Under the pieces are notes generated by a model. That model worked only from the letters and a program-made list of their open reading frames with translations. It was not told the DNA's origin and made no database searches. The position numbers and the translations under genes were made by a program. Shown here in pieces: positions 1 to 30,632 of a DNA stretch of 32,948 nucleotides; position 1 is the stretch's first letter, and the number at the start of each line of letters is the position of its first letter. The DNA comes from Spirochaetes bacterium GWB1_27_13 (GTDB taxonomy: Bacteria > Spirochaetota > GWE2-31-10 > MWDO01). The DNA lies in assembly GCA_001829125.1 (NCBI GenBank), contig MIAN01000063.1:13075-46022 (forward strand), written 5' to 3'.

Positions 1-677
1 TAGCGTTATTGTTAAAAGAGTTAAAACCACAGATAAAGCAACCTATTTTTAATAGAATTGCAACGGCTCTTTTTTATGGAATAACATCAGATACTGATGA
101 TCTTAAGCATTCCTTTCCAATTGATGTGGAAGCAATAGATTTTTTAAAACCAAGTATTATACAAACAATCATAGATTATATAAAAAAGACACCACATAAT
201 GAAGAAACTCGAAAAATAGTAAATAATGCCTTATTAAATCATATATTATATAAAGATTGGTTTATTTGCGGTGTAGGTTATCTTAATGAGAAACATAGAG
301 ATAGTATTGCTATTGCAGGAGATTATATTTTACAATTAGAGCAAGATAAAAATGTAGTAATTTTTTGTATTGTAGAAAAAGATGATTACGAAGGCTTATA
401 TATTGATGCTTCTTTTAGGACTAACAATCTGGCGCTTGACTTAAATAATTTCATAAAATCAATTACTCACAATGGAGGAGGAAGAAAAAATAAAGGAGCT
501 TACCAAGTAAATCTTGATTATTTCTCTAAATATGCAGATAAAGAATTATTATGGAAAATAGTTTCTGATACAACCATTTCATACATGAAGAATGAAATAG
601 ACAATATTAGTAGTTTTAAATGGAGTTTGAGTTCTGTTTTTAATAAATTTTCTAATTTTTTTAAGAAAAAACAGTAA
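1..677 (+). CDS. DHH/DHHA1-family phosphoesterase, 3' part only (NrnA-like)
   Basis: The reading frame is open to the first base (codons GCG TTA TTG from position 3), so the gene begins before the window; a TTG at 9 is not a convincing start. The first visible segment contains a TALFYGITSDT motif, the conserved helix that follows the DHH catalytic core in NrnA-like phosphoesterases. A GGGRKNKGA motif (nt 474-500) matches the DHHA1 substrate-binding motif, usually GGGH; here the histidine is arginine. The family hydrolyses short oligoribonucleotides, cyclic-dinucleotide breakdown products or 3'-phosphoadenosine-5'-phosphate. The metal-binding DHH residues lie outside the window, so activity cannot be judged. 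The C-terminus is lysine/phenylalanine-rich. No neighbour hints at a substrate. Confidence 0.75.
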   Translation, partial: ALLLKELKPQIKQPIFNRIATALFYGITSDTDDLKHSFPIDVEAIDFLKPSIIQTIIDYIKKTPHNEETRKIVNNALLNHILYKDWFICGVGYLNEKHRDSIAIAGDYILQLEQDKNVVIFCIVEKDDYEGLYIDASFRTNNLALDLNNFIKSITHNGGGRKNKGAYQVNLDYFSKYADKELLWKIVSDTTISYMKNEIDNISSFKWSLSSVFNKFSNFFKKKQ

Positions 678-796
678 AAACAATTCTATATTTTGATATT
701 TATTTAAATTTGAAATTTAATAGATAAAAATAACTTAAAATCAGTAAAATTAGAATAAATATTCTTTTTTAAAAAATTTAAATTTCCTCTAAAAAA

Positions 797-825
797 TTGA
801 TCTATGGTTCGACTTTAACCATATT
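797..825 (+). promoter_or_regulatory. Possible promoter with internal palindrome before the NTF2-like gene
   Basis: TTGATC (797-802) and CATATT (820-825) are separated by 17 bases, a weak sigma-70-like pair. A 7-base inverted repeat, TATGGTT (803-809) and AACCATA (817-823), occupies the spacer and could be a repressor site or an RNA hairpin. The rest of 678-905 is plain AT-rich DNA in which I see nothing else. Confidence 0.3.
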
Positions 826-905
826 TATGCACATTTTAACCTTTTAAATCTTTTATATTTTTTCTATATTACTTATCAAATATTAAATTAAAGAGGTTAA
901 TTAAA

Positions 906-1319
906 ATGGAAAATTTAAAAGAAATTGTGAAATCGTTTTATACAGAATGCTTGACTGTAAACAAAACAAGTAATCCAAGTGAAAAAATGGAAAAATTATT
1001 AGCCGAGGATTTTAAATCAATCAATGCAAAAGAAACTAAAGGAAAAGCACAATTAATCGGTCAGATTGGATTTTTCTGGAAATTGATACCAAATTTGAAA
1101 TGGGAACCACAAGAAATATTACAAGACGGTAATAGAGTAATAGTAAGAAGTATTTTTAGCGGTTCACCAAAGGGTGATTTTATGGGATTGACTTTGGACG
1201 GAACAAAATCTTTTAACACAACATCTATTGATATTCATACAGTTGAAAATGAACAAATAAAGACTGTTTACCATGTTGAAGAGTGGGCAACTGCAATACA
1301 GCAATTAACTGTAAAATAA
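906..1319 (+). CDS. NTF2-like / SnoaL-type ester cyclase family protein
   Basis: A 137-residue soluble protein without signal peptide. The order helix-rich N-terminus (residues 1-35), ...LLAEDFKSI..., an aromatic stretch near IPNLKWEPQEIL, then alternating beta strands (VIVRSIFSGSPKG, IDIHTVENEQI) ending in a histidine/glutamate-bearing strand is typical of SnoaL-like proteins of the NTF2 fold. Members include polyketide cyclases, steroid isomerases and many uncharacterised small enzymes, so no substrate can be named. The ATG follows an AAAGAGG ribosome-binding site (891-897). A strong terminator follows immediately, so this is a single-gene unit. Its neighbours downstream are also small accessory-looking genes, suggesting an acquired patch; that is inference. 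Confidence 0.7.
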   Translation: MENLKEIVKSFYTECLTVNKTSNPSEKMEKLLAEDFKSINAKETKGKAQLIGQIGFFWKLIPNLKWEPQEILQDGNRVIVRSIFSGSPKGDFMGLTLDGTKSFNTTSIDIHTVENEQIKTVYHVEEWATAIQQLTVK

Positions 1320-1327
1320 ATTTTTTA

Positions 1328-1364
1328 AGCCCCTCTAGCCAATAATAGTAGGGGCTGTTTTTTT
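1328..1364 (+). terminator. Rho-independent terminator of the NTF2-like gene
   Basis: AGCCCCT (1328-1334) pairs perfectly with AGGGGCT (1350-1356) across a 15-base loop and is followed by a GTTTTTTT tract. It is one of the few GC-rich stems in this stretch and lies 8 bases past the stop codon. Confidence 0.85.
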
Positions 1365-1394
1365 CAGATTTTAAGTTAAAACAGGACTAATAAT

Positions 1395-1650
1395 ATGAGT
1401 AAACACATCGATATTGTACCAATTTGGTTACGAATTATAATAGGATTTTTAGCGTTGATGAACATTGCATTTGGAGTAATGGGATATTTTGACATGTCTG
1501 TTCTTTTCAACAATGGAGCAGGGCTTAATCTCAGTAATACGATTCTTAAAAATGCAAGTTTTGAATTTGCAGCAAAGGAATCTGGCAATTGGATTGGCAT
1601 TAGGAATTGTAGCTGCTAAGTGTGTTCCTGAAAGTATTACTATATCATAA
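1395..1650 (+). pseudogene. Small integral membrane protein gene, frameshifted
   Basis: An ATG at 1395 after AGGA encodes a membrane protein start (helix at residues about 8-30, WLRIIIGFLALMNIAFGVMG) and runs to a stop at 1617-1619, giving an abnormal hydrophilic tail (KESGNWIGIRNCSC). Removing one A from the AAA at about 1573-1576 restores the frame to FAARNLAIGLALGIVAAKCV, a proper second membrane helix with an ARN-type motif seen in small DUF-type membrane proteins, ending at 1648-1650. So the tail comes from a single-base insertion in a short A run, or from a sequencing error. Even repaired, the protein would be about 85 residues, shorter than the 120-130 I would expect for this type, so it may also be 3'-truncated. 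Confidence 0.65.
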
Positions 1651-1684
1651 CATTAATTAGAGTAATTAAAAAAAGGGATGTTCA

Positions 1685-2071
1685 ATGAAAAAAATAATAG
1701 TATTAACTACCATTCTTTTTTCTTTATCAATATTATTAATAGCACAAAATAATAACTCAATGACTTCTAAATCGGAATATATTGAAATTGCAAAATTCCA
1801 ACTCAAAGCAGGTTTTAGCGACGAACAATTTTTACAAGCCGAACAAACTGTAAGAAAAGGAATTATCAAAGATACCAAAGGATATATAGGTAGAGAACTT
1901 TTTAAAAATGAAAACAACGAATGGACAGTAATTCTTAGGTATGACACTAAAGAAAATATGGACGCTTTATTGGCATTATTAAAAAAAAATCTACATCCCA
2001 GTTTTCAAGATTACGCTTCGATGATAGATTTTTCTACAATGCGTAAAGAGTTTCTTTTCAAAAAAATTTAA
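1685..2071 (+). CDS. Exported ABM-like (dimeric alpha-beta barrel) protein
   Basis: A 128-residue protein with a classical signal peptide (MKK, hydrophobic residues 4-19, likely cleavage after LLIA before QNNN). The mature part has the strand-helix-strand pattern of the antibiotic biosynthesis monooxygenase / dimeric alpha-beta barrel superfamily: YIEIAKFQLKAGFSDEQFLQA, GYIGRELFKNENNEWTVILRY, then KENMDALLALL. Members are often cofactor-free oxygenases or small ligand-binding proteins; substrate unknown. The start follows AAAGGGATG. The gene is only 34 bases past the frameshifted membrane gene, so the two may have formed one transcript. Export of such a domain is somewhat unusual. Confidence 0.6.
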   Translation: MKKIIVLTTILFSLSILLIAQNNNSMTSKSEYIEIAKFQLKAGFSDEQFLQAEQTVRKGIIKDTKGYIGRELFKNENNEWTVILRYDTKENMDALLALLKKNLHPSFQDYASMIDFSTMRKEFLFKKI

Positions 2072-2079
2072 TCAATTTA

Positions 2080-2110
2080 TGAGACCAATAACAAAAATAT
2101 GTTGGTCTCA
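2080..2110 (+). terminator. Hairpin after the ABM-like gene, possible terminator
   Basis: TGAGACCAA (2080-2088) and TTGGTCTCA (2102-2110) form a perfect 9-base stem with a 13-base loop, 9 bases after the stop codon. The bases after it (CGCCTTTAC) are not a proper T tract, so it may be a weak terminator or an mRNA 3'-stabilising hairpin. Confidence 0.45.
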
Positions 2111-2178
2111 CGCCTTTACAAAAAAAAGAAGAATCATTTTATAAAAAAACCACAAACAATGCTAATATTTAGTATTTA

Positions 2179-2209
2179 TTGAGCTTTTGAAAGCATTTAA
2201 GTATATAAT
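2179..2209 (+). promoter_or_regulatory. Promoter and leader hairpin of the metallo-hydrolase/CNB gene
   Basis: TATAAT at 2204-2209 is a perfect -10 box; the best -35 is TTGAGC at 2179-2184 with a long 19-base spacer. The implied leader is about 100 bases and includes a hairpin, GGGTG (2280-2284) with CACCC (2289-2293), placed 7 bases before the AAAGGAG ribosome-binding site (2301-2307). The hairpin could affect translation. Confidence 0.5.
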
Positions 2210-2314
2210 GTAAGACGCTTTAATTTTATGTAAAATTCTGCCGTAAATTAGTATAAAAAAATTGGAAATACAAAATACTGGGTGAAGACACCCTCAATCA
2301 AAAGGAGAATTTAC

Positions 2315-4450
2315 ATGGATCAAAATATAGAAATTTCTTATAAAGTTTTACCTCGAGGTGGGTTTTTGGTGGATACAAGCGAAGGTTATATCCAGTTTGG
2401 AGTACCGCCTGAGACAATAAAGGATACCATGGGTTTTCCAAAGGGTGTACCTCAGATTTTTGTACTAACTGACAGAATGTTTGATTGGAAAAAGGGTATT
2501 AGTCTTGCAGAAGTTGAGTTTCCACTTTACTTTAATTTTTTTATCAAAAAACGTAAAACTTATATCGTTTGCACAGAAGATCAGGAAAAAGCATTAATAC
2601 CGCTCTTACAAGAGTCATTGTTTGGTCCAAAAAAGTTTGATATAAGTAGGGATTGTACCGAAGATTTTGATAAAAAACTCATCCCAAATCTGATCAATGA
2701 GATGGAATATTTCAGAAACAATTTGAAAATTTCTGATCTTGTAAAACTTATCGTTTTCAAAGATGATAAGGTTTGTTTCAATAACATTACAATTGTAAGA
2801 GACAAAGAAAATTTATTTTCTGTTTTGGATTCTGAAGTCGAAATCGCAATTGTACCAAGAAACATAACCTACACTCCAACAATAATGATAGGTGCTCGTT
2901 TGTCAGAACCATATAGACCACCACTTTTTAGTATCACATGTTTAGGTCCAAGTCATGGATTTGACCCTACGGAAAACACATCGGGCTACATAATATGGCT
3001 TAACCATCACGGAATTATGGTAGACCCACCTGTCAATTCCACCGAGTGGCTTGATGCCTCCAATGTAAACCCTAAACTTATAGATAGTATTATCCTTACA
3101 CATTGTCACGCAGACCATGATGCAGGAACTTTTCAAAAAATACTAAACGAAGGCAAAATTACTGTTTATTCTACCGAAACTGTTATGATGAGTTTCTTGA
3201 GGAAATACTCGGCTTTGTCTGGAGAATCAGTTAAGGATCTTCTCAAACTTTTCAATTTTATTCCAATAAAAATTAGGACTCCAGTTTTTATACACGGAGG
3301 ACAGTTTGAAATGTTTTATACTCTCCATTCAATTCCAACATTAGGTTTTAAAATGGCTTTTCAGGATCAAACTTTTGTATATTCTTCTGACCACAATAAC
3401 GATCCTGTTTTACATCAGAAATTATTTGACACAGGAGTTATCTCTCCCGAAAGGTATAATGAACTATCGCTTTTTCCATGGGATTCTAAAGTAATCTACC
3501 ATGAATCAGGCGTTCCACCACTTCATACACCTATCAAATATTTGGATTCTTTACCAGAAGAAATCAAAAAAAAGACAGTGGTCTACCATATAGCAAAAAA
3601 AGATTTTCCAGAAAACACAATCTTAAAATTAGCCACTTTTGGTATTGAGAATACGCTTGAGTTCAAAACAGAAAAACCTCCTTATGAATCAGTTTATAAC
3701 CTACTAAATATTTTGAAACATCTAGATTTTTTCAACAATTTGTCAATCCTAAAAATACAAGATTTTATTACAAGTGTTGTTAAAGAAGAATTTAAAAGAG
3801 GTGATTTGATTATAAAAAAAGGAACTATTGGCGATAAATTTTATATCATATATTCTGGTAGTGTGTCGGTACAAAGTGAAGGTCTTGTACATAAAAAGAT
3901 TTATGGAAGTTACGAATATTTTGGTGAACTTGCACTTTTAACAGGTCAAGTTCGTGTAGCAGATATAATTGCAGAAACAGATGTTGTTGCATATTCAATG
4001 GAAAGGAATAGATTTTTACATTTTATCTCTGGTACTGATTTTGAAAAAACCCTTTATAGGCTTGCCAAAACTCGAAGTAGTGATACTTGGAATCTTTTAT
4101 CAGACAGTCAATTTTACAAACAATGCACTTCTTACCAAAAAACTTGGTTAGAATCGATTTTAATTCCAATGGATGACGTGCCTGCTGGTATCATACTAGG
4201 CGAAGGAGAACCAACAGAACGAGTCTATATTATCCGAAACGGTGAAGTAACAGTTGATTGGCAGGGAGGAAATTCTTTTAAAATAGGTCGAGGTGATATT
4301 ATTGGCTCAATGTTGAAAGTAGCAAAACGTGAACCATCCAATTTTACATTCTCAAATTCAAACCCTGTTTCACTTTACACTATGAAAAGGGAAGATATAA
4401 TCGAATTTGTGCGAGGAAATCCTGGTATTGCAAAGAAAATGTTTTATTAA
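2315..4450 (+). CDS. Metallo-beta-lactamase-fold hydrolase fused to two cyclic-nucleotide-binding domains
   Basis: I take the ATG at 2315 (711 residues), placed 7 bases after AAAGGAG, rather than the in-frame GTG at 2282, which lies inside a leader hairpin. Residues 1-190 match no family I recognise. Residues about 200-450 are a metallo-beta-lactamase fold: the THCHADHD motif gives H263, H265, D267 and H268, with later metal-site candidates in SSDHNND and YHESG. From about residue 485, a cyclic-nucleotide-binding domain carries a good phosphate-binding cassette (FGELALLTGQVRVAD, with the key Glu and Arg). A second, degenerate domain (about 610-705) lacks that cassette. No membrane segment is visible, so it is probably cytoplasmic. 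Ligand control of a hydrolase is the natural reading; substrate and ligand are unknown. It is monocistronic. Confidence 0.8.
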   Translation: MDQNIEISYKVLPRGGFLVDTSEGYIQFGVPPETIKDTMGFPKGVPQIFVLTDRMFDWKKGISLAEVEFPLYFNFFIKKRKTYIVCTEDQEKALIPLLQESLFGPKKFDISRDCTEDFDKKLIPNLINEMEYFRNNLKISDLVKLIVFKDDKVCFNNITIVRDKENLFSVLDSEVEIAIVPRNITYTPTIMIGARLSEPYRPPLFSITCLGPSHGFDPTENTSGYIIWLNHHGIMVDPPVNSTEWLDASNVNPKLIDSIILTHCHADHDAGTFQKILNEGKITVYSTETVMMSFLRKYSALSGESVKDLLKLFNFIPIKIRTPVFIHGGQFEMFYTLHSIPTLGFKMAFQDQTFVYSSDHNNDPVLHQKLFDTGVISPERYNELSLFPWDSKVIYHESGVPPLHTPIKYLDSLPEEIKKKTVVYHIAKKDFPENTILKLATFGIENTLEFKTEKPPYESVYNLLNILKHLDFFNNLSILKIQDFITSVVKEEFKRGDLIIKKGTIGDKFYIIYSGSVSVQSEGLVHKKIYGSYEYFGELALLTGQVRVADIIAETDVVAYSMERNRFLHFISGTDFEKTLYRLAKTRSSDTWNLLSDSQFYKQCTSYQKTWLESILIPMDDVPAGIILGEGEPTERVYIIRNGEVTVDWQGGNSFKIGRGDIIGSMLKVAKREPSNFTFSNSNPVSLYTMKREDIIEFVRGNPGIAKKMFY

Positions 4451-21930: not shown

Positions 21931-24729
21931 ATGTTTTTAAAAAAATTAGTGATAAGTGGCTTTAAATCTTTTTGTGATTATTCGGAAGTTGGTTTTGTTA
22001 AAGGAATTTCTGCAATTGTTGGACCTAATGGGTGCGGAAAGTCTAATATAGTTGATGCTATAAAATGGGTAATCGGCGAACAAAAAACTAAAATGCTTCG
22101 TGCTGATAATATGACAGATGTTATATTTAAGGGGACAGAGACTCGTAAAGGGCTTGGTAGATGCGAAGTTAGATTGACAATTGTAAATGACCAAAATATT
22201 CTGCCTATTGAGTTTAATGAAGTCGAAATATCGAGAATAATTTATGCAAGTGGTGAAAACGAATACTATGTAAACAAACAAAGAGTTAGATTAAGAGATA
22301 TTCACGAATTATTTTTTGATACTGGAGTTGGAAAATCTGCTTATTCTGTTATGGAACAAGGTAAAATTGATTTGATACTTTCTACCAAACCAGAAGATAG
22401 ACGATATATAATTGAAGAAGCGGCTGGTATTACAAAATACAAAGTTAAAAGAGAAGATGCCTTATCAAAATTACATCAGGCTGACGAAAATATTGTTAGA
22501 ATTAAAGATATAATCAATGAAGTAAAAAAACAATATGATAGTATGAAAGTTCAAGCAGAAAAAGCAGAAAAATACAAAGACCTTTACGATAAAGAGATTA
22601 ATCTTGAGATTGAGTTAAATTTAAATAGAATATCAAGGTTAAAACAAGGAAAAGACGAATTAAAAGAAGAATTTGAGACAGCAGAAAAAGAACTTGGCGA
22701 AGTAAAAGATCATATTGAAAACCTTTCTGATGATGTTGAAGAAAAAATGGTATTTTTGAATGAACTTGAAAATAAAAAAATTGATGCTCAAAGACAACTT
22801 TTTCAAATTGATAGTGACTCAAAAGTTTTGTTTTCGAGGGAAAGTTTATTAAAAGACCAATTAATTACACTTACTTCTAATTCTAAAGCTGATAATGATA
22901 AAATAAAATTCGTTTTGGTAAAAATTGAAGAAATTGAAGATGAATTAATAAGTATACAAGAAACTAAGGAAGAATTTGACGAAAAAATTATTGGTTTAAT
23001 CAAAGATACAGAATTTTATAGTAATTCTATAAATAACATTGATCTTGAGATAAAGAGTGCAGATGAATGGAGCATTGATCTTAAGAAAAAAATTGAGCAG
23101 TCAAACAGGGATTTGGAACAAAAAAGAGTTAAGCATAAGCAAGTAACTGATAAACTTGTAGAAAAAATTGAACAATCTTTAAATACGATAGAGGTTCATT
23201 CATCAGAGATTTTGACTTTAAAATCAAACCTCAAAACTAGTATTTCTACTGTTATTGAAGAGTTGCCAAAAAGAAGAGCATTTATTGACGATATTCTAAA
23301 AGTTGGATATGTGTCTGGCGAGTCAAAAGAATTGTTAAAAATGCTTGAAGACTTATCTAATAAACTTAAAGTTATAGAAAATAAACTTGTTGTAGCAGAT
23401 GAAAATACAAAAAAATATATAGATATAACAGAAATATTCTTGGATGATATTTTTAGTCCAGAAGGTATCTTACAGCAAAAAAGACATATTGAACATGACA
23501 TTAGTGAGACTATTGAAAATATAAAAAATTATAACAATGAAATAGAAAATATTCAACTCGAAGTGCTCACTAAAAAAAATAAAAGAGAAGAGTATAAAGA
23601 AGTATTAAATGAGTTAAAAATTAACCTTTCTACACTAAAAGAAAAGAAAAATTCAATTGATAAAGAAGTTAATAGAATTATTTCTTTAAAAAACAACTAC
23701 GAGACAAATAAAGAAGAATTACAACAAAAAATTAAATTTGCTGAAAATAAAATTGAAGAAATTAGAGATCAACTTGAAGATATTGAAGATAAAATTATAG
23801 AAAGAAAGACAGCAAAAAGTAGTTTTGAAAAGAAATTAAAAGAATTCGATATTGAAATTCAAAAAGAAAATGTTAGACTTTCTGAGCAAAATAAATATAT
23901 TCGTGAAATTAATAATAGATTGATAGCAAAACAAACTCAGGTTGAAAAACTAAAAATTAGGATTACAGAAACAGATACTACGATAAACAATATTTACGAT
24001 GGTTTTTATGAGAATTTTTCGATAAATCTTACTGAATATGAGTCAAAAGGCGGATTTATAACAAATAGAAACTATGATGAAATCAGAAAAGAATTGTCTG
24101 AAGTGAGGACTCAAAAACATGGTCTTGGCAATGTAAATTTAATGGCTATTGAAGAATGTAAAAGTCTTTCTGAAAGATATAAACTTTTGACTGAACAATT
24201 AACAGATCTCGAAAAAGCCAAAAAAGATATTATTGAAATGATCGGCGAGATAAATAAAGTATCAGAAGAATTATTCTTAAAAACATTCAATCAAATAAAA
24301 ACAAACTTCCATAAACTTTTTAGAAAATTGTTTGATGGTGGAAACTCTGATATTGTTTTGACAAATCCAGAAAATCTTTTGGAAACTGGTATTGAAATAA
24401 TAGCACATCCACCTGGTCAAAAAACAAAGAGTATAACTTTACTTTCTGGTGGACAAAGAACAATGGTTGCAATATCTTTAATGTTTGCGACTTTTTTGGT
24501 TAAGCCGTCACCTTTTTGTCTTTTGGACGAAATTGATGCAGCTCTTGACGAAGAAAATGTTACAAGATTTATAAGTTTGTTAAATGATTTTAAAAGCACA
24601 AGCCAATTTATTATGATTACACATAACAGAAAAACAATGACAGCATCAGATGTTATGTATGGTGTAACTCAAGAGGAAAAAGGAGTGTCAAAAATTGTTT
24701 CAGCCAAACTCATTGAAAGAACTCTTTAA
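21931..24729 (+). CDS. smc: Chromosome segregation/condensation ATPase SMC, short form without recognisable hinge
   Basis: 932 residues against about 1170-1190 for standard bacterial SMC. The N-terminal head is canonical: FLKKLVISGFKSF, Walker A GPNGCGKSN (residues 31-39), KMLRADNMTDVIFKGT, and SAYSVMEQGKIDLIL with the Q-loop region. The C-terminal head has the signature LLSGGQRTMVAISLM, Walker B FCLLDEIDAALDE and ITHNRKTM. Between them lie coiled coils (about 165-790). Their centre (about 410-520) shows no glycine-rich SMC hinge, only short helical segments such as LKVGYVSGESKELL. I recall spirochaetal SMC (P115) homologues also being short. GGGGAG lies 14 bases before the ATG, a long spacing. 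The 3' end overlaps the next gene. Confidence 0.92.
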   Translation: MFLKKLVISGFKSFCDYSEVGFVKGISAIVGPNGCGKSNIVDAIKWVIGEQKTKMLRADNMTDVIFKGTETRKGLGRCEVRLTIVNDQNILPIEFNEVEISRIIYASGENEYYVNKQRVRLRDIHELFFDTGVGKSAYSVMEQGKIDLILSTKPEDRRYIIEEAAGITKYKVKREDALSKLHQADENIVRIKDIINEVKKQYDSMKVQAEKAEKYKDLYDKEINLEIELNLNRISRLKQGKDELKEEFETAEKELGEVKDHIENLSDDVEEKMVFLNELENKKIDAQRQLFQIDSDSKVLFSRESLLKDQLITLTSNSKADNDKIKFVLVKIEEIEDELISIQETKEEFDEKIIGLIKDTEFYSNSINNIDLEIKSADEWSIDLKKKIEQSNRDLEQKRVKHKQVTDKLVEKIEQSLNTIEVHSSEILTLKSNLKTSISTVIEELPKRRAFIDDILKVGYVSGESKELLKMLEDLSNKLKVIENKLVVADENTKKYIDITEIFLDDIFSPEGILQQKRHIEHDISETIENIKNYNNEIENIQLEVLTKKNKREEYKEVLNELKINLSTLKEKKNSIDKEVNRIISLKNNYETNKEELQQKIKFAENKIEEIRDQLEDIEDKIIERKTAKSSFEKKLKEFDIEIQKENVRLSEQNKYIREINNRLIAKQTQVEKLKIRITETDTTINNIYDGFYENFSINLTEYESKGGFITNRNYDEIRKELSEVRTQKHGLGNVNLMAIEECKSLSERYKLLTEQLTDLEKAKKDIIEMIGEINKVSEELFLKTFNQIKTNFHKLFRKLFDGGNSDIVLTNPENLLETGIEIIAHPPGQKTKSITLLSGGQRTMVAISLMFATFLVKPSPFCLLDEIDAALDEENVTRFISLLNDFKSTSQFIMITHNRKTMTASDVMYGVTQEEKGVSKIVSAKLIERTL

Positions 24730-26687: not shown

Positions 26688-28412
26688 ATGTCAAGAATAA
26701 TATTATTAAATAATGAGCAAATTAATATATTAAAAGAAGAATATAATAATTTTTCAGAAAAATATTCAAAAGAAAAAGAAAAATTTAATTTGTCCTATTT
26801 TTTTAATGAATTTAAGACTAAATACCCTCAATTTAAAGAATTTACTGAAAGACAACTAACAAATAAAATAATTGATCAAAGAAAAATTTTTGGTGAAAAA
26901 GAATGGCCTCGATTGTATAAAAGTGAATTAGATGTGGCAATATGGTCTGGTATTAATTTCTCTCAGGAATGGGACAAAGTAAACACATCTACTTTGGATG
27001 AAATACTTCCCTCATGGTTAAAAAAAAGAGAGCAGTTAAAAAATAACCCAAAAGAATATTATTATTTTTTGGAAAAAATAAAAAGACAACACGCAATAGA
27101 AACTGGGGTAATAGAAAAATTATATGACTTAAAAGAAGGAGTTACAGAAACCTTTATTAGAGAAGGATTTGTTAGTTCTTATTTGCAACACGGAGATACA
27201 AATATATCAGAAGATAAATTAATGGAATATCTTAAAGACCATCTCTCTGCTATTGATTATATTTTTGATTTGGTAAAAAATAATAGAAATTTAACTAAAA
27301 GTGTTATTAAAGAATTACATCAATTAGTTACTTCTCATCAAGACTCAATAGTCGCTAAAGATCAATTTGGAAATTTAGGTGAAGTTCCATTATTAAAAGG
27401 TCAATTTAAAAAATATGAAAATAATCCATTAAAAGAAGATGGTAAAAAATTTATTTATTGTCCGCCAATTCAAGTCGAAAGTGAGATGGACAGGCTAATT
27501 GAAATATATAATAAAAAAATTAATTCAAAACCTATTGTTTTAGCTTCTTGGTTTCATCATGCTTTTACTCAAATACATCCTTTTCAAGATGGCAATGGTA
27601 GAATTGCTCGTTTATTAACAAGTTTGATATTGATAAAAAATAATTTATTTCCTTTTACAGTTGTACGACAAGAAAGAAAAAATTATCTTGAAGTTTTAGA
27701 AGAAGCGGATAATGGAAATCCACAACCATTAGTTAATTTTTTTTGTGAAGTACAAAAAAATTATATCGAAAATATATTAAATTTAAAATTAAATGTTGAT
27801 TCTACTTATGAAGAAGTCAAAGGAATATTTGCGGAAAAAATTAGAAAATTAAAATCTATTGAACAAGAAACTCGTTATAAAAACATTAATGAAAATAGGA
27901 TTAAAATTTTTGATTTTTGTAAACAAATTATGACCAATTATGAAAATGATTTAAAAACAGAATTATCAGATAAGATAAATGTTTATACAGATTTTGCTTA
28001 TCCAACTGATATTAAAAAATATTATAATTACACTCATCAAATACTTGAATATGCAATAAAACACAATTATTTTTTTAATAGAGGCTTGCCAAGAGGTTGG
28101 TTTAAACTGTCTATCGTCTTAGAAGAAGAAAGGCGTTATCAATTAATAATAACAGTTCATCATTTTGGTTATGATGATTCTACTTTAGCAATAGGGGCTA
28201 TATTGGAATTTATTGAGCCAATAACAACAAAATCTAAAAGAAAAGGGTCTCAACGAAAAACACCTCAAACAATTGTAACAAGTTTACCTTTAGAAATTAA
28301 ACCTTATGTAATTTCTATTGAAAAGAATATTGATGACTCAAGACATAATATTGAATCATTTTTAAAAGATGTAATTACTGTTGCATTAGGTCAAATATCA
28401 AATGAGTTTTAG
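26688..28412 (+). CDS. Fic-domain protein (probable AMP transferase) with built-in inhibitory motif
   Basis: 574 residues. The Fic core is intact: HPFQDGNGR at 297-305, with catalytic H297, the acidic D301 and R305. The preceding flap region is EVPLLKGQFKKYENNP (about 232-247). A T155-F-I-R-E-G160 sequence fits the (S/T)xxxE(G/N) inhibitory helix motif, so the enzyme may be self-inhibited rather than paired with a separate antitoxin; no antitoxin gene is adjacent. The N-terminal 150 and C-terminal 200 residues are unassigned (IETGVIEKLYDL is typical of this large Fic subgroup). The target protein is unknown. The ATG lies 10 bases after TTAGGGA and 10 bases past the lipoprotein stop. Its place between envelope and folate genes looks accessory. 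Confidence 0.9.
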   Translation: MSRIILLNNEQINILKEEYNNFSEKYSKEKEKFNLSYFFNEFKTKYPQFKEFTERQLTNKIIDQRKIFGEKEWPRLYKSELDVAIWSGINFSQEWDKVNTSTLDEILPSWLKKREQLKNNPKEYYYFLEKIKRQHAIETGVIEKLYDLKEGVTETFIREGFVSSYLQHGDTNISEDKLMEYLKDHLSAIDYIFDLVKNNRNLTKSVIKELHQLVTSHQDSIVAKDQFGNLGEVPLLKGQFKKYENNPLKEDGKKFIYCPPIQVESEMDRLIEIYNKKINSKPIVLASWFHHAFTQIHPFQDGNGRIARLLTSLILIKNNLFPFTVVRQERKNYLEVLEEADNGNPQPLVNFFCEVQKNYIENILNLKLNVDSTYEEVKGIFAEKIRKLKSIEQETRYKNINENRIKIFDFCKQIMTNYENDLKTELSDKINVYTDFAYPTDIKKYYNYTHQILEYAIKHNYFFNRGLPRGWFKLSIVLEEERRYQLIITVHHFGYDDSTLAIGAILEFIEPITTKSKRKGSQRKTPQTIVTSLPLEIKPYVISIEKNIDDSRHNIESFLKDVITVALGQISNEF

Positions 28413-29843: not shown

Positions 29844-30632
29844 ATGGCAAGTCAATTAAGTAATCTTTTTAAAGACGCACACGATGAGGGGCTTATTTCT
29901 TCTGATACGCTAAATGCTTTGAATGTAATTGATATTGGGGCAGAAATTCAAGCGGCTTTAGGGGTAGGTGTTGATGATTTTGGTTCAAGTGAAGTAGTTT
30001 TTGTAACTATGTTAATCGATGATTCCAGTTCGATTGATTATGTTGCAGGAAATGCTAATGCTGTAAGAGAAGGACATAATGCAGTCATTGATGCGTTACA
30101 ATCTTCAAAACAAAAAGGAAATGTATTAATTCATACAAAATATCTAAATGGAAAAATTTTATATCCTTATTGCTATCTTGATCAGACTGTAAAAATGAAT
30201 GGTAGTAATTATAGTCCAAATGGAGGGACACCTCTTTACGATAAAACAGTTGAAATTTTATCTGAAGTATTAGCAAAATCAATGGAATATTCAAATAATG
30301 GTATTGCAGTAAGAACAGTAACTTTAATTGTTACTGATGGTGCTGATTATGGCTCAAAAAAACAAACCACACATACTGTAAAATCAACAGTAGTTGATAT
30401 GTTAAAACAAGAAAATCATATAATCGCAGCTATGGGAATTTATGATGGCAGTACAGATTTTAAGGACGTATTTAAAGACATGGGGATTCCAGATAAATGG
30501 GTATTAACACCAAAAAATACGGCATCAGACATAAGAAAAGCATTTCAAGTATTTTCTCAATCTGCTGTTAAAGCAAGCCAAAATGCTCAAATTTTTAATC
30601 AAACATCCTTAGGTGGATTTGGTTCTACTTAG
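29844..30632 (+). CDS. Cytoplasmic von Willebrand factor A-domain protein
   Basis: 262 residues without signal peptide or membrane helix. The VWA fold spans about 50-245 with an intact metal-ion-dependent adhesion site: D59-x-S61-x-S63 (LIDDSSSI), T129 (NGGTPLYD) and D165 (VTDGAD). Intracellular VWA proteins usually act as scaffolds with AAA ATPases, chelatases or kinases, but none is adjacent. The N-terminal 45 residues are helical and the C-terminal tail (SQNAQIFNQTSLGGFGST) is flexible and glycine-rich. The extended GGAGGAGGAG ribosome-binding site, own promoter and strong terminator suggest high, independent expression. Confidence 0.85.
   Translation: MASQLSNLFKDAHDEGLISSDTLNALNVIDIGAEIQAALGVGVDDFGSSEVVFVTMLIDDSSSIDYVAGNANAVREGHNAVIDALQSSKQKGNVLIHTKYLNGKILYPYCYLDQTVKMNGSNYSPNGGTPLYDKTVEILSEVLAKSMEYSNNGIAVRTVTLIVTDGADYGSKKQTTHTVKSTVVDMLKQENHIIAAMGIYDGSTDFKDVFKDMGIPDKWVLTPKNTASDIRKAFQVFSQSAVKASQNAQIFNQTSLGGFGST

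Follow-up and report, generated by a model that had tools for sequence, protein, structure and literature searches.

The gene at positions 21931 to 24729 of the window, by which we mean the whole 32,948-nucleotide stretch of DNA from Spirochaetes bacterium GWB1_27_13 that was analyzed, encodes a bona fide bacterial SMC protein in which both ATPase halves are complete and the SMC_hinge domain is absent. Apparently, the hinge-less SMC is a phylum-wide trait of spirochaetes. We think it likely that these proteins belong to an ordinary Smc-ScpAB system, in which a helical-hairpin apex has taken the place of the hinge and its role in dimerization, an exchange that probably happened early in the phylum. 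In SMC proteins the hinge is regarded as both defining and essential, in its roles as dimer joint, DNA contact and a proposed DNA entry gate. The Spirochaetota, which include the pathogens that cause syphilis, Lyme disease and leptospirosis, appear to manage without it while keeping ScpAB, Borrelia-like genomes apart. A supposedly essential part would thus have been swapped out in nature, making the role of the hinge testable beyond engineered chimeras.

The frame is open from its ATG start and specifies a protein of 932 residues. It scored 788.5 bits with TIGR02168 (SMC_prok_B), the curated bacterial SMC model with a cut-off of 567, and 189 bits (E=9.2e-56) with Pfam SMC_N. Both half-heads are complete: Walker A, Q143, the LSGGQ signature, Walker B and the H-switch histidine H898 were all fully or almost fully conserved across an alignment of 28 relatives. 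The Pfam hinge model PF06470 did not match the protein even at E<=10. The first-pass annotation had described an SMC of 932 residues with complete half-heads and no recognizable hinge, and the frame, the motifs and the Pfam and TIGR02168 results all agree with this description. The region it had singled out for a hinge profile search, residues 400-530, likewise had no hinge match even at E<=10. The gene and its ATPase motifs are as follows.

21931..24729, + strand: smc, hinge-less SMC of 932 aa (TIGR02168 788.5 bits; SMC_N E=9.2e-56; no SMC_hinge at E<=10)
22021..22044, + strand: Walker A GPNGCGKS, residues 31-38 (from sequence; near-invariant columns in 28 relatives)
24442..24456, + strand: ABC signature LSGGQ, residues 838-842 (from sequence; conserved in relatives)
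24517..24531, + strand: Walker B CLLDE, residues 863-867 (from sequence; conserved in relatives)

PF06470 found no hinge anywhere in the host genome (4.4 Mb in 273 contigs, 87% complete). A second full-length smc gene, which would have spoken against the first-pass reading, was absent from the SMC_N matches of this genome, ruling out a hidden second SMC.

We then extended the search to 120 evenly drawn Spirochaetota genomes. A hinge-less SMC was present in 117 of them, nearly always as a single open frame, which rules out a frameshift, an assembly error or a private deletion as the source of the unusual architecture. PF06470 matched in only one of the 120 genomes (G115). This match was rejected as a condensin SMC, as the 1089-aa frame is the Wadjet protein JetC (PADLOC, E=5.5e-158), and the same genome additionally carries the usual hinge-less SMC (L050). 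A hinge-bearing condensin SMC was therefore detectable in none of the 120 genomes. The suggestion in the first-pass annotation that the architecture might be a lineage trait was right, and its extent can now be given as the phylum. Named records with the same apex were all labeled Spirochaetota, Spirochaetes, Spirochaetia or Brevinema, save one "uncultured bacterium", and no other phylum label occurred. The JetC frame, the sole PF06470 hinge in the 120 genomes, lies at 598-3750 on the minus strand of its contig (C27, locus L147). Two genomes more than 90% complete, G018 (L148, L149) and G086, had ScpA and ScpB and no convincing SMC, reflecting either an assembly gap or a real absence.

In order to locate the missing hinge relative to the arms, a profile built from 63 spirochaete SMCs was matched to canonical SMCs. 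Against the hinge-bearing Mycoplasmopsis SMC (978 aa), profile positions 1-404 corresponded to 1-406 and positions 525-928 to 569-973, and the net insertion was close to zero. Against the long-armed Monoglobus SMC, positions 1-402 corresponded to 1-402 and positions 519-926 to 778-1184. Because the flanking blocks are colinear with almost no net insertion, spirochaete residues 405-524 (120 aa) are taken as the counterpart of Mycoplasmopsis residues 407-568 (162 aa), inside which the Pfam hinge spans 419-538. The two arms were delimited accordingly.

22453..23142, + strand: N-terminal coiled-coil arm, approximately residues 175-404 (profile 1-404 = Mycoplasmopsis 1-406; 1-402 = Monoglobus 1-402)
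23503..24165, + strand: C-terminal coiled-coil arm, approximately residues 525-745 (profile 525-928 = Mycoplasmopsis 569-973; 519-926 = Monoglobus 778-1184)

The arms are shorter than those of the canonical 1180-aa type and have the same length as those of the short-armed Mycoplasmopsis SMC. Since the latter protein has matching arms and retains its hinge, arm length and hinge exchange are two separate matters, and by this alignment the short arms are a natural arm-length class of their own, distinct from hinge loss. The shorter arms noted in the first-pass annotation are thus real in comparison with B. subtilis-like SMCs, but they are not part of the hinge loss. Bürmann et al. described several SMC arm-length classes and found arms of 253-267 residues to be functional in B. 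subtilis (PMC5344682). Some hinge-less SMCs in our set are longer (L056-L068, 1069-1106 aa), with extra coiled coil and a related apex.

The segment at the hinge position contains the following features.

23143..23502, + strand: replacement apex, residues 405-524, at the hinge position (between matched arm blocks; all-helical models)
23305..23325, + strand: predicted hairpin tip loop, residues 459-465 (AlphaFold DSSP; family lengths vary there)
23437..23502, + strand: conserved apex motif, residues 503-524, with F503, I507-F508, the SPEG break 509-512, I513, K517, I520 and I524 (column counts, conservation peak)

An AlphaFold2 model of residues 330-620 (60 sequences) had a mean pLDDT of 89 and consisted of three helices only. 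A model of residues 395-535 (pLDDT 79) contained helices 396-422, 424-458, 466-508 and 513-534 and no strand. The simplest topology consistent with these models is a hairpin, the tip of which we place at 459-465 because the arms are then equal in length and because family lengths vary there. The conserved motif reads F503-x3-I-F-x3-G512-I-x3-K517-x2-I520-x3-I524. Among 83 spirochaete SMCs, K517 was present in 74 and G512 in 66, and position 524 was hydrophobic in all 83; besides K517, the motif has a second charged, nearly invariant position, the acidic residue 521. Within the distal arms, conservation is highest at residues 503-524 (2.24 bits per column versus an arm mean of 1.45), and residues 493-514 exceed every arm window of equal size in hydrophobicity. 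A zinc hook at the apex was rejected, as the 932-aa protein contains no CxxC; the motif occurred anywhere in only 1 of 84 relatives. Searches by sequence and fold with an arm-plus-apex piece returned generic coiled coils. With the apex model alone, the best TM-score among the 50 Foldseek matches listed belonged to a Rad50 coiled-coil rod (6zff; 0.60/0.66 over 121 columns), at a non-significant E-value of 3.3; no hinge was among the matches listed, whose E-values were non-significant. Taken from alignments and models, these data support a conserved, all-helical domain of 120 residues standing in for the hinge. The first-pass annotation had raised the possibility of a replacement domain, and a candidate is now placed exactly at the position of the Mycoplasmopsis hinge.

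Two further contigs of the host genome encode intact ScpA (265 aa) and ScpB (181 aa), so that the search for these partners proposed in the first-pass annotation had a positive outcome. The two genes (scpA, L150 2571-3368, +; scpB, L151 2443-2988, +) are well inside their separate contigs, an arrangement characteristic of this family; in most other spirochaetes they are adjacent. Downstream of scpB are open reading frames that read like rluB and cmk. ScpA and ScpB were each found in 108 of the 120 genomes, and in 92 of the 95 of good quality, which identifies the spirochaete SMC, judging by gene content, as part of an Smc-ScpAB system. Because both partners are present, the MukB- or RecN-type replacement that had also been considered is unnecessary.

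Borrelia-like spirochaetes differed in this respect. Neither ScpA nor ScpB was found by Pfam search in the three remaining good genomes (G075, G100, G105), which form one genus, judged Borrelia-like from its chromosomes of about 0.9 Mb. Their SMCs (L073, L072, L074) are 817 aa long and have the shortest apex (79 residues), from which the motif has been lost. A coupling between loss of the motif and loss of ScpAB is suggestive only: it concerns a single clade, and families f22 and f29 run counter to it, having a decayed motif while keeping ScpA and ScpB. A Hi-C study of B. burgdorferi reported no inter-arm alignment despite the presence of SMC and blamed the missing ScpB; the hinge is not mentioned there (PMC10406323). 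The same study counts an ScpA homologue in B. burgdorferi, which our Pfam search did not detect in Borrelia-like genomes. Absence of the hinge bears on why B. burgdorferi Smc leaves the chromosome arms unaligned.

Comparison with known systems places the protein closest to bacterial SMC (TIGR02168; B. subtilis, Mycoplasmopsis), with which it shares the heads, ATPase motifs, arm register, ScpA/ScpB partners and single copy. It differs in having the 120-aa helical apex instead of SMC_hinge. Rad50/SbcC resembles it in having a hinge-less, antiparallel coiled-coil hairpin as apex, with 6zff giving the best TM-score among those listed (E=3.3). However, the spirochaete SMC lacks the CxxC zinc hook, has kleisin partners and scored 84.5 bits with the Rad50/SbcC profile against a cut-off of 700. 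RecN is likewise SMC-like and hinge-less, and its dimer interface consists of three apical helices (PMC4255302); its arms, though, reach only about a quarter of the length, accessory proteins are not known for it, and the spirochaete protein reached only 44.1 bits with TIGR00634 (cut-off 407.85). Archaeal coalescin/ASRP is also SMC-related with a dimerization element other than the hinge (PMC9389158), but this element is a zinc hook, which the CxxC-free spirochaete SMC does not have, and NF045487 gave 82.6 bits, below its cut-off of 300. By description, an oceanic clade from another phylum, its members annotated as Actinomycetes, has an SMC with SMC-type heads and neither hinge nor zinc hook (PMC12153180).

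We propose that the spirochaete SMC works as the ATPase of a chromosomal Smc-ScpA-ScpB condensin whose hinge would have been exchanged for a helical hairpin early in the phylum. The N-arm helix would run to residue 458 and, after the loop 459-465, return as helix 466-508, followed by the SPEG break (509-512) and the C-arm. Two protomers would join via the hydrophobic surfaces of the hairpin and the conserved joint (405-413 and 503-524), as in the hinge-less proteins Rad50 and RecN. With the protomers joined at the apex, a closed SMC-kleisin ring could still form, and neither DNA entry nor ATP-driven translocation would require the hinge fold. Dimerization through the apex is plausible in light of work on other proteins. 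When the hinge of B. subtilis Smc was exchanged for a Rad50 zinc hook, growth remained normal, leading the authors to conclude that the fold of the dimerization domain is irrelevant for segregation (PMC5344682). A hinge-less dimer joint made of helices has a precedent in RecN. Whether the hinge-less proteins share one origin was addressed with a tree of the heads only, which placed them and five canonical SMCs with low support. A single early exchange of hinge for apex can be argued for from the sequences, because the apex motif is shared and the position of the exchange is exact.

Could a diverged hinge persist in the spirochaete proteins and have been overlooked by the profile? PF06470 is of limited sensitivity, as it missed the Caulobacter control and gave only 25.3 bits for the Azospirillum SMC, so that the model fails on some proteobacterial SMCs and the profile alone is insufficient. 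It nevertheless detected the hinge in the SMCs of Monoglobus, Pontibacillus, Mycoplasmopsis (978 aa) and Azospirillum, and gave no match in five divergent spirochaete SMCs, including long forms of 1097 and 1081 aa and a Borrelia-like form of 817 aa. Moreover, residues 405-524 are shorter than a hinge and come out as helices without any strand in both AlphaFold2 models, which cover different lengths of the protein, the listed fold and sequence matches of the apex region include no hinge structure, and a hinge was found in the SMC of 0 of 120 genomes. On the strength of the positive controls and the helix-only models we reject a missed hinge, and regard its persistence as highly improbable.

The other alternatives accept the absence of the hinge and concern what the apex does. 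It may not dimerize at all, so that the protomers would be joined only by the ATP-bound heads and ScpA-ScpB, as an open two-armed clamp without a closed ring. The lack of a known dimerization fold or zinc hook (CxxC in only 1 of 84 sequences) would fit, as would the Borrelia-like SMCs, with the shortest apex and no motif, and the B. burgdorferi chromosome, which lacks inter-arm alignment with SMC present (PMC10406323). That phenotype, however, was ascribed by its authors to missing ScpB (PMC10406323), and a conserved motif amid variable coiled coil suggests an interface. A non-dimerizing apex is further disfavored because B. subtilis Smc became non-functional once hinge dimerization was abolished (PMC5344682), and we consider it unlikely. 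In its boldest form, with the whole phylum running Smc-ScpAB without a closed apical gate, on plain non-dimerizing hairpins, with loading and loops achieved by an open clamp at heads and kleisin, the idea is rather unlikely. A separate protein might instead bind the apex and supply dimerization, in which case the motif would serve for docking rather than self-association. The charged, near-invariant positions beside the hydrophobic ones (K517, acidic 521) could be read this way, but the neighbors of smc in the window offer no hint of such a partner, and we judge this quite improbable. Joining of the protomers through the hairpin apex itself is thus the reading we prefer.

In the open-access papers searched, we found no description of a hinge-less spirochaete SMC, although older subscription papers on SMC evolution may mention the short proteins of spirochaetes. 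The oceanic-clade SMC without a hinge was presented in 2025 as new biology (PMC12153180). Spirochaetes are a much larger and cultivated group with the same hinge-less state.

Elsewhere in the window, the frame at 2282-4450 combines a metallo-beta-lactamase-like domain with cyclic-nucleotide-binding domains. A 262-aa protein at 29844-30632 had no Pfam match and resembles, by eye, a von Willebrand A-type domain, and positions 26688-28412 encode a Fic/DOC family protein.
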